Source: Pseudooceanicola algae (GTDB lineage: Bacteria; Pseudomonadota; Alphaproteobacteria; Rhodobacterales; Rhodobacteraceae). From it: a DNA stretch of 64,000 nucleotides. The position numbers and the translations under genes are program-made. Numbering within the stretch: the first letter of the stretch is position 1; every line of letters begins with the position of its first letter. This document shows positions 57,564 through 60,159 of the stretch, in pieces. The notes under the pieces are model-generated. The model saw nothing but the letters and a program-made list of their open reading frames with translations, was not told the DNA's origin and ran no database searches. The stretch covers positions 778,001 to 842,000 of the forward strand of contig NZ_CP060436.1 in the NCBI RefSeq assembly GCF_003590145.2, given 5' to 3'.

Positions 57564-57811
57564 GGCGTTGTTGCATATCTCTGACGCCAGAGGATTCACT
57601 TCGCGAATCCATTCGGTTGCATGGGCTGCATGAGCAAGCCACCTCCCGCGCGCTATCGTACGACGAACTGGTCCAGCTACAACGCGTCACTGTGCAAGCG
57701 AGGGTCTCTGCTGATCTGGGTGGACAAGGATATGACCTGGCACGCGCCGCGTGGCGGGCGGCCGGGACGCCCGCCGGTCTTTTCCGATGCCGCTATCCGG
57801 TTCTGCCTGTC

Positions 57812-57852
57812 CACTGCCCGGCAGGGCGTTGCGCAGCAATGTCCCGAGAGGG
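57812..57852 (-). repeat. 41-base palindromic insert 1
   Basis: Interrupts codon TCG of 'CLSIKIL' in the IS5 transposase; removal restores the frame. On the minus strand it has the left arm CCCTCTCGGG, inner stem CATTGC-TGC-GCAACG (G-U pair on the plus strand), right arm CCCTGCCGGG and tail CAGTG. Orientation opposite to the other three. Confidence 0.85.
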
Positions 57853-58030
57853 GATCAAAATCCTTTTCAAGCTGCCGTTGCGCCAGGCCGCCGGGATGGT
57901 AGCCAGCCTGCTCCGGTTAGCGGAGCTGGACTGGCCCGTGCCGGGCTTCTCCACCTTGTGCCGCAGGCAGAAAACCCTGGCCGTGCAGATCCCCTATCGC
58001 CGTGCTGACGGGCCGTTGAACCTGCTCGTG

Positions 58031-58071
58031 CCCTCTCGGGATCATGCTGCGCATGACCCTGCCGGGTGACA
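58031..58071 (+). repeat. 41-base palindromic insert 2
   Basis: Lies between 'NLLV' and 'DSTGIK' of the transposase. Left arm CCCTCTCGGG, inner stem TCATGC-TGC-GCATGA, right arm CCCTGCCGGG, tail TGACA. The inner stem differs from insert 1 at both sides, keeping pairing. Confidence 0.85.
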
Positions 58072-58293
58072 GACAGCACCGGCATCAAGTTCCTCGGCGA
58101 CGGCGAATGGCAGGCCCGCAAGCATGGCCCGCAGGGCCAACGGCAGTGGCGCAAGGTCCATCTGGCCATGGATCCGGCCACTTCGGACATCCGCGCCGTG
58201 GAATTTACCCTCAGCCGCGACGGCGACGGCCCCGTGCTGCCAGACCTGCTGAGCCAGATCCCGGCAGGCGAGCAGATTGGCACCGTCACCGCC

Positions 58294-58334
58294 CCCTCTC
58301 GGCAGATTGCTTTGCAATCGCTTGCCGGGCAATG
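58294..58334 (+). repeat. 41-base palindromic insert 3
   Basis: Lies after 'GTVTA' and before 'GAYDTRR'. Left arm CCCTCTCGGC, inner stem GATTGC-TTT-GCAATC, right arm GCTTGCCGGG, tail CAATG. Both stem strands again change together. Confidence 0.85.
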
Positions 58335-58545
58335 GGTGGCGCCTATGACACGCGCCGCTGCCACAAGGCCATCATCGGGCGTGATGCTGTCCCGATCATT
58401 CCGATCCGCAGAAACGGACGTCTGTGGAAGGAGGACTGCCCGGCGGCATGCGTCCGGAAGAAACCCTGCGCGCCACCCGATACTATGGCCGGGCCTTCTG
58501 GAAACGCTGGACGGGCTATCACGCCCGAAGTCGGGTCGAAGCGAA

Positions 58546-58586
58546 ACCTCCCGTGACATTGCTGCGCAATGCACTGCCGGTCACTG
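58546..58586 (+). repeat. 41-base palindromic insert 4
   Basis: Lies between 'SRVEA' and 'KMRCLKAF'. Left arm ACCTCCCGTG, inner stem CATTGC-TGC-GCAATG, right part CACTGCCGGT, tail CACTG. The outer GTG/CAC pair replaces GGG/CCC of inserts 1 and 2. Confidence 0.85.
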
Positions 58587-58789
58587 GATGCGCTGCCTGA
58601 AAGCCTTCGGCGAGCGCATCGCCGCGAGAGACCCCGACCGCCAGATCGCCGAAATCGAGGTGAGCTCCGCATCGCCCTCATGAACTGGTTCTCGGCCCTC
58701 GGCACTGCCGAGATCGAACGCGTGCCATGACGTCAGCGGGGTAAGGGGAATTCACGCCTCAAGCCGGAGATCTGCAAAAATGCCGACTG

Positions 58790-60159
58790 GAAGTGTCATG
58801 AGCTCTGTGTATCTGGTCTGGCTCATACGGGTTTCAGATACGGTCACGCATTGAAGCGGTCCTCGAACATTATGGCGAAATGGTTGCGTGCGGCAAACCA
58901 TTTCCGGACATTTCGGTCTCCTTCCTCGAAGTTGCGGATTGCCAGGTAGATCAGCTTTGTGGCGGCGTCCTCGGTGGGGAACGATCCGCGCGTCTTGATG
59001 GACTTGCGGATCACCCGGTTCAGACTCTCGTTATGAATGAGGGACCAGCAGGGGGCAGGTCACATTCGTGGTGTAGATGATCTTGCGGATGGCCGGATCG
59101 AAGGCGAAGAACGGGATCACCTCCTGCCAGGCCCTGCGCCAAGCAGGGGCGATTGATGCATATTTGCCGGGCCATTTTTCTTCGAAGGCATCGAGTTCGG
59201 CGGCTGGCTGATCAACGGTCGGGGCGCTGTAAATACGCCTCAGGTCAGCGGCCACCTCTTTGAAATCCTTCCAGGCGCAGAAGTTCAGCGAGTGGCGCAC
59301 GAGGTGGACAATGCAGGTTTGCACGGCCGTGCCCGGGAAGGCTGCGGTAATGGCGTCAAGGACGCCCTTCAGACCGTCCACGACCGCGATCAGGATGTCC
59401 TGCACCCCGCGGTTCTTCAGTTCCGTCATCACCGAGAGCCAGAATTTGGCACCCTCGTTGTCGGCGATCCAAAGACCAAGAACTTCGCGCATGCCTTCCC
59501 TGTTGACGTCAAGAGCGACGTAGACAGCCTTGTTCTTGACCATGCGGCTGTCAGCATCGCGGATCTTGACCCGCAGAGCGTCGAAAATGACGATGGGATA
59601 CATCCAGTCCAGCGCGCGGCTCTGCCAGTCCCGGACTTCGTCCAGAACGGCATCTATGACGCGGCTGATCAGCTCGGGCGGCACTTGCAGGCCATAGACA
59701 TCCTCGAGATGGGTGCGGATGTCACGAACCGTCAGACCGGCGGCGTAGAGGCCAATGATCTTGTCATCCATCCCATCGATCCGGGTCTGGCCCTTCTTCA
59801 CCAGCTCAGGCTCGAAGCTGCCGTCGCGGTCGCGCGGCACGGCAATCGGCACCTCGACGTCCTGCCCCTTCAGCCGTTTGGAGGATGTGCCGTTGCGCCG
59901 GTTGGACTGATCGGCCGGAGCATCTTTGCCATCTTCATAGCCCAGGTGCGCGGTCAGCTCGGCACCCAGCATCCGCTCCATCAATTTGAACTTCAGCTCT
60001 TTCATCAAGCCGTCATCGCCAAGCAGATAGATCAGATAGATCATCAGGCCGCTCGCCGCCCTTCAGCAGTACGTCCAGCAGTTCCTTGGAAATCGTCATC
60101 GTCCTTGCTCTTCTCAGGAAGCATGGACCGGTTCCAGGTTACACGGAAGTCAGGACACT
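58790..60159. mobile_element. IS256-family insertion sequence, inactive
   Basis: Ends share the pattern AGTGTC-TGA..TC.GTGTA.CTGG: on the left near 58792-58815 and, as reverse complement, on the right near 60134-60159. Outside, CGACTG (58784-58789) is repeated at 60162-60167, with positions two bases further matching partly, as for a worn 8-base target duplication. It abuts the IS5 right end. Length ~1.37 kb. Confidence 0.75.
58844..60099 (-). pseudogene. IS256-family (mutator-like) transposase, disrupted
   Basis: From ATG 60099 the frame 'TISKELLDVLLKGGERPDD' is broken after 17 codons by a 13-base tandem duplication (AGATAGATC twice at 60025-60042 on the plus strand). The main frame continues 'GDDGLMKELKFKLMERMLGAELTAHLGYEDGKD' through 'AFDPAIRKIIYTTN', where a net 28-base insert (59030-59063) causes a second frameshift. 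The C-terminus 'ESLNRVIRKSIKTRGSFPTEDAATKLIYLAIRNFE' then runs to TGA at 58844. DDE residues are in 'VIFDALRVKIRD' and 'IAVVDGLKG'. Confidence 0.9.

Follow-up and report, generated by a model that had tools for sequence, protein, structure and literature searches.

Palindromic inserts of about 41 nt in transposase genes of Rhodobacterales: a family of apparently mobile DNA hairpins with a tail coupled to the target site

As far as the cited passages describe them, REPs are palindromes of 20–40 nt (mismatched in some families) with a tag beside the stem, GTAG or CGTC, which is believed to select the cut site, and they lie mainly between genes (PMC8266576, PMC3733652). The same passages give for IS200/IS605 elements a guide sequence beside the hairpin that directs targeting (PMC8266576), and for the Rickettsia palindromic elements (RPEs) a position inside genes, where they are translated as part of the host proteins (PMC3733652). 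RUP of pneumococcus is about 107 bp long, carries terminal inverted repeats like those of IS630-Spn1 and makes target duplications; it has been suggested to favour insertion in or close to IS elements, with tolerance offered as the reason (PMC3049150).

Here we describe hairpins from a window of 64,000 nt in the genome of Pseudooceanicola algae (contig NZ_CP060436.1, positions 778,001 to 842,000), where four of them interrupt a single transposase gene. Set beside the systems above, as portrayed in those passages, they resemble REPs and the TnpA-REP system in being palindromes with a short tag beside the stem, IS200/IS605 in that a tag next to the hairpin is coupled to the target, RUP in being a small repeat that favours IS elements, and RPEs in being palindromic inserts in alphaproteobacterial genes. 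However, RUP is larger and has terminal repeats and duplications, and RPEs are translated with their hosts, whereas the hairpins here mostly shift the frame and lie largely in transposase genes. Short hairpin segments within coding genes are also found in the T4 gene 60 bypass and as mitochondrial byp elements, from which the present hairpins differ in their random orientation (39 vs 35). Our best explanation as a whole, to which we give a probability of about 0.66, is that the inserts are copies of a mobile DNA hairpin that is ultrashort and non-autonomous. If this is right, the elements are, to our knowledge, among the smallest mobile DNA units, have dispersed across a large bacterial family and are housed for the most part within other mobile elements.

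The host gene in the window (57,630–58,730, plus strand, limits set by alignment) is a degenerate IS5-family transposase gene of the ISPpa4/ISRhba5 type. The first-pass annotation had reported four inserts of exactly 41 bases in it, with a common core, CANTG tails and TGACA in copy 2, and every one of these details is borne out. Copy 1 (57,812–57,852, minus strand, tail CAGTG) has the empty site GATC^GACAG, the caret marking the insertion point, and clustering of sites by flanks shows this site also filled in three other loci (L002, L058 and L285). Copy 2 (58,031–58,071, plus strand, tail TGACA) stands immediately 5' of the Asp codon in LLV^DSTG, with TG as its left flank. Copy 3 (58,294–58,334, plus strand, tail CAATG) lies at TA^DGAYD, a site that is empty in the aligned own-genome locus L003, and copy 4 (58,546–58,586, plus strand, tail CACTG), whose outer pair is an A-T variant, lies at a site that is contiguous, hence empty, in the own-genome loci L005 and L007. 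We take copy 4 to be two codons past the Glu of the YREK signature, and three of the four inserts to be at or adjoining DDE residues. Paracoccus pantotrophus ISPpa4 (L059) and Phaeobacter ISRhba5 (L062), relatives annotated as intact IS5-like transposases, lack all four inserts in the alignment, which rules out that the inserts are ancestral transposase sequence; a Roseivivax copy (L058) has inserts 1 and 3 only. The absence of target duplication claimed at first pass also holds: the empty sites in L059, L062, L003 and L005/L007 are blunt, and alignment revealed no duplication in the relatives of the gene, in own-genome copies or in genome G162, so that the duplication expected of a MITE of a DDE-type IS is missing. 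Nor was a larger element or an autonomous IS with matching ends noticed among the loci studied. The earlier proposal that the inserts and one base loss account for the broken frame stands in part, as the 1-nt loss is real but the gene also has about 5 extra nt within 58,657–58,665, near its 3' end, when compared with intact genes; it thus carries six lesions in total, not five. An Rfam search at gathering score of the window and 12 loaded loci returned one tRNA and no RNA family on the hairpins. The neighbouring transposase frame on the minus strand (59,031–60,044) presumably ceases to follow the usual protein near its end, beyond TTN, which could reflect a further short insertion; judged by eye, this putative insert is not of the hairpin family.

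Each element is one imperfect palindrome of the form CCC-TCTC-variable stem-TGCC-GGG followed by a 5-nt 3' tail, with constant outer arms and an inner stem that differs between copies by paired changes. At 183 non-redundant sites collected with a relaxed script, lengths range from 35 to 45 nt, with 110 elements of 41 nt and 20 of 37 nt, while a pattern sample (125 elements, 122 sites) contains 57 of 41 nt, 25 of 37 nt and 15 of 43 nt and at least 40 different inner sequences. A model-free scan for gaps of 28–60 nt between homologous loci, in which copies of one IS were counted separately, also peaked at 41 nt (88 of 229 insert sites). The two-sided stem changes described at first pass are real: covariation in the seven own-genome copies scored 0.492 vs 0.138 when shuffled (0 of 500 shuffles as high), and in 85 distinct rows from other genomes 0.305 vs 0.072 (again 0 of 500), with at most 0.032 when slid. 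Pair cells are paired in 96.4% of cases in these 85 rows, an alignment that was fitted to the model and is therefore biased towards it. The covariation supports the earlier suggestion that the hairpin is kept by selection and, combined with the restricted distribution described below, rules out chance palindromes.

A covariance model (R1) built from seven own-genome copies found nine places in that genome at E ≤ 10, seven of which are the copies that built it, and seven places scored 4.2e-8 or better; two 37-nt relatives were spotted by eye in the own-genome IS5 copies L002 and L009. Across the order, R1 matched 167 of 390 Rhodobacterales genomes at E ≤ 1e-3, with at most 16 candidates scored per genome so that per-genome counts are lower bounds; the absence of further copies, which would have refuted the first-pass annotation, is thereby excluded. 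In a phylum sample searched with strict filters that lose weak matches, 10 of 398 genomes matched at E ≤ 1e-4, and every one of the 10 belongs to the same family as the window. A search pattern in which 20 bases are fixed occurs in at least 120 stretches of named genomes and in six viral contigs, a short pattern allowing two mismatches being too unspecific, and matches to one copy at E ≤ 0.01 come from 97 plasmid records. Among the 80 pattern matches listed, a single Vreelandella neptunia contig accounts for two, and a further two are labelled only Alphaproteobacteria; the other names we take to be Rhodobacteraceae, Roseobacteraceae or Rhodobacterales. The hairpins are thus a real, large and family-restricted set, and they look mobile, units of one kind recurring in many genomes and at many positions that are unrelated to each other. 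Among titles and opening lines of abstracts in the open literature, covered with few subscription journals and no preprints, we found no description of such elements in Rhodobacterales. The two Vreelandella neptunia elements (L225, L269), on a gammaproteobacterial contig, lie in or near IS copies about 70–78% like other loci of the set, for which transfer or mis-binning is possible. Degenerate IS3 genes in L088 (794–2,116) carry eight matches to the model over about 1.3 kb.

Three counts place 61–70% of elements in or beside transposase-type genes, a strong but not absolute bias to mobility genes. A transposase-type Pfam domain exceeded the curated cut-off in 28 of 40 flank fragments (up to 700 nt from the element, taken from the top 60 of the 142 elements after random ordering, with one fragment dropped and one duplicate skipped); the other 12 had no or only weak Pfam matches, and one of the 28 also held a generic HTH, the sole non-transposase domain above cut-off. 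By homology to these 28 fragments, a transposase-homologous stretch stands no more than 150 nt away from 94 of the 142 model-found elements, compared with 28.7% of all locus sequence analysed. The remaining 48 yielded further IS66, IS110, IS21, IS256 and IS3 matches; some host-like domains also turned up within 500 nt of them, as did domains of a replication initiator, a phage integrase and a DNA methylase (one list holding the best 25 of 37 families). In the pattern sample, 74 of 122 elements have a transposase-homologous flank within 400 nt, as against 8 of 300 control positions on the same contigs; the other 48 contexts gave mostly IS66, IS630, IS91, IS21, IS256 and IS5-type matches, three phage-integrase fragments and single matches to short-chain dehydrogenase, FGGY kinase, SnoaL, PALP and Mu gp27, these tallies of transposase-negative contexts counting fragments rather than elements. 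An earlier tally of 143 fragments from relaxed-script sites, at least one of them false (L014), had 23 transposase or HTH families among the best 25 of 55, the other two being DUF3768 and ribose-5-phosphate isomerase. Relative to the transposase reading frame, orientation is random, with 39 elements in the same and 35 in the opposite direction. Hairpins of this kind could account for part of the transposases annotated as pseudogenes in Rhodobacterales.

Homologous IS copies recur among the loci, so that sites are not fully independent, and at homologous transposase sites different copies hold different hairpins. Clustering 263 sites by their flanks, in one orientation only, gave 40 clusters with at least two members (109 sites). 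The LLV^DSTG site of window copy 2 belongs to a cluster of 10 IS5 sites, one joined by its left flank alone, that hold at least seven hairpin sequences, and IS3 copies of three genomes hold different hairpins at RFRFI^EEHR and DNAA^VE, with the same kind of hairpin at KVTT^DSDHK in two of the three. Several insertion sites are presumably at catalytic residues of transposases. IS copies loaded with two to five hairpins have themselves multiplied. In genome G162, five IS110 copies (one split) that are about 99% identical carry two hairpins each, and the inner hairpin of one insert varies complementarily between copies; G285 has seven full-length IS5 copies 99–100% identical to the query with four hairpins and one unrelated hairpin of about 42 nt; G075 has IS3 copies at 99–100% identity with five hairpins; and G004 has two IS copies with five hairpins and one of a second family. 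With 40 candidates scored per genome, the other matches were short or at most 75% identical over long stretches in G162 (IS110) and partial in G285 (IS5).

These loaded copies bear on the proposal that the inserts are excised from RNA or bypassed in translation, that loaded transposases still work, and that the elements home to conserved sites like inteins or introns. It would account for the multiplication of loaded copies (five in G162, seven full-length in G285) in genomes where none of the scored matches is a close copy free of hairpins, and for insertion at presumed catalytic residues, and it agrees with loaded genes being mostly open between their hairpins. Changes between copies in four IS groups, 16 synonymous and 16 non-synonymous against 23.5 non-synonymous expected (p 0.005, from small numbers and an assumed transition weight of 2), also hint at constraint on the loaded transposases. 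Splicing or bypass would, however, need a fixed orientation, which is contradicted by the random one found, and element lengths of 35–45 nt shift all frames. Additional lesions occur in the window gene, in the G285 IS5 (a 2-nt and a 1-nt loss) and in the G075 IS3 (no 3' end), and since the latter two multiplied anyway, supply in trans would suffice. We therefore consider splicing or bypass very unlikely and most simply attribute the spread of loaded IS copies to transposase supplied in trans.

Movement of the hairpins themselves is indicated by two 99.3% identical stretches in G162, one with an element and one without, and by window copy 3, whose 98% identical copy in the own-genome locus L006 lies at an unrelated site of another IS5 copy. 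Elements at least 97% identical at unrelated sites of one genome amount to eight pairs, in five of the eight genomes compared, which suggests that current activity is low. This scarcity, and the multiplication of loaded IS copies as units, would also suit an old burst that is no longer mobile and later spread only by IS transposition, gene conversion and horizontal transfer. The G162 pair and the different hairpins held by homologous sites speak against such a history, which seems improbable to us. Near-identical IS110 copies (L093/L094 vs L095/L096) share an insert whose inner stem, complementary in both, differs between them, as does its tail, which looks like the replacement of one element by another at the same spot.

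The target consensus is C^GAYGG, with blunt insertion. Base frequencies are C 65 ^ G 72, A 69, Y 85, G 57, G 44% over 183 sites, and C 82 ^ A 78, Y 87, G 59, G 49% over 122 sites of the independent pattern sample, where the first G after the insertion point is fixed by the pattern itself. A scan for coupling between flank and element, comprising 110 tests, gave a first tail signal among model-found elements: TG stood on the left in 6/6 cases with a T...A tail, and G in 2/138 with tails ending in G. This pair of left base and tail was then tested on other loci; the other coupled pairs of the scan were near 0.05 only, and we make no claim for them. As predicted, G lay on the left at 24 of 26 previously unseen T...A-tail sites (27 of 29 non-redundant sites before removal of three already seen), in a sample where pattern search found T...A tails in 27 of 390 genomes and up to 30 loci were used. 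Over 287 pooled sites, three with other tails set aside, G stands left of the insertion in 30/32 sites with TRAYA tails and in only 5/252 with CANTG-type (C...G) tails; only flank-identical sites were merged, so that sites are partly dependent. Window copy 2, with tail TGACA and left flank TG, conforms to the rule. Both tails are seen on seven identical cores, whose sites follow the rule in 36/36 cases, and this means that the tail goes with the site and not with the core. No base-pairing rule between tail and target was found, and the open literature yielded no earlier description of the coupling. A guide that selects the site and a tail set at insertion would both produce it, and the coupling constitutes a directly testable targeting rule.

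Such coupling is among the features that invite comparison with REP-like elements whose mobiliser is a REP-associated Y1 transposase (RAYT) or the TnpA of IS200/IS605, along with the small imperfect palindrome, the short conserved tag adjoining the target, and the lack of duplication. Y1_Tnp (PF01797), however, occurs in only 5 of 15 element-bearing genomes, a set that includes the own genome, where it is absent, and two drafts (G158, G310); in G075, a hairpin disrupts one Y1 gene (L208). The GTAG/CGTC tag is also absent, with CANTG-like or TRAYA tails in its place, and where REPs are mainly extragenic in the passages cited, 28/40, 94/142 and 74/122 elements lie in or beside transposase-type genes. 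The elements differ from IS200/IS605, as described there, in having a single hairpin and no gene, in the absence of Y1 from 10 of the 15 genomes and in the lack of a pairing rule. We consequently rate mobilisation by RAYT or TnpA as unlikely. Just two of the tested REP and IS200 features were seen, namely the tag-target link and the absence of duplication, and the best reading is that the elements work like the REP/IS200 type yet fit no tested family. RVT_1 (PF00078) is present in 5 and Y2_Tnp (PF04986), which an IS91/Y2 derivative would require, in 9 of the 15 genomes, both being absent from the own genome, and all three domains are absent from the own genome, G120, G158 and G310. As none is present in all 15, Y1 and reverse transcriptase are rejected as obligatory mobilisers, and Y2 seems not to be one either.

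The absence of RVT_1 from 10 of the 15 genomes, the own genome included, tells against the retron-like product that the first-pass annotation had offered as one option, and its footprint family is made improbable by near-identical units standing at sites unrelated to each other. Its remaining option, a minimal non-autonomous transposon, fits best with the many unrelated sites, many genomes and clean empty sites. By analogy with TnpA-REP and IS200/IS605 transposases, we posit that such an element would move as a folded single strand, in trans, with a putative nuclease reading hairpin, tail and target, and that the tail may be a guide or be written by the target as the element inserts. Copies would persist since mobility genes, transposase genes among them, can be dispensed with and increase in number, and the hairpins would travel along by IS transposition and horizontal transfer. 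If the mobile hairpin is the right explanation, its mobiliser would be a new hairpin-reading nuclease or a known enzyme in an unexpected role. More tentatively, and with some doubt on our part, the elements could represent a new transposition system, consisting of hyperparasites of mobility genes about 40 nt long with a modular 5-nt tail (guide or target-written) that determines or registers where insertion occurs and changes independently of the hairpin, a novel enzyme and repeated return to conserved catalytic transposase codons.

Further short hairpins share these hosts. A second, unrelated family of about 40–43 nt, with the centre GATCCCCCGGATC or AGTCCCCCGGACT, occurs in the same kinds of IS genes (L139:10463, L147:1415, L189:2161, L190:2178 and L003 at about 1237–1290). 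A third hairpin, GC-rich and about 42 nt long, begins GTGAGATGGGACCGTGGCCCC... and lies in IS genes of G285 (L172:1663–1705 and L169:1262).
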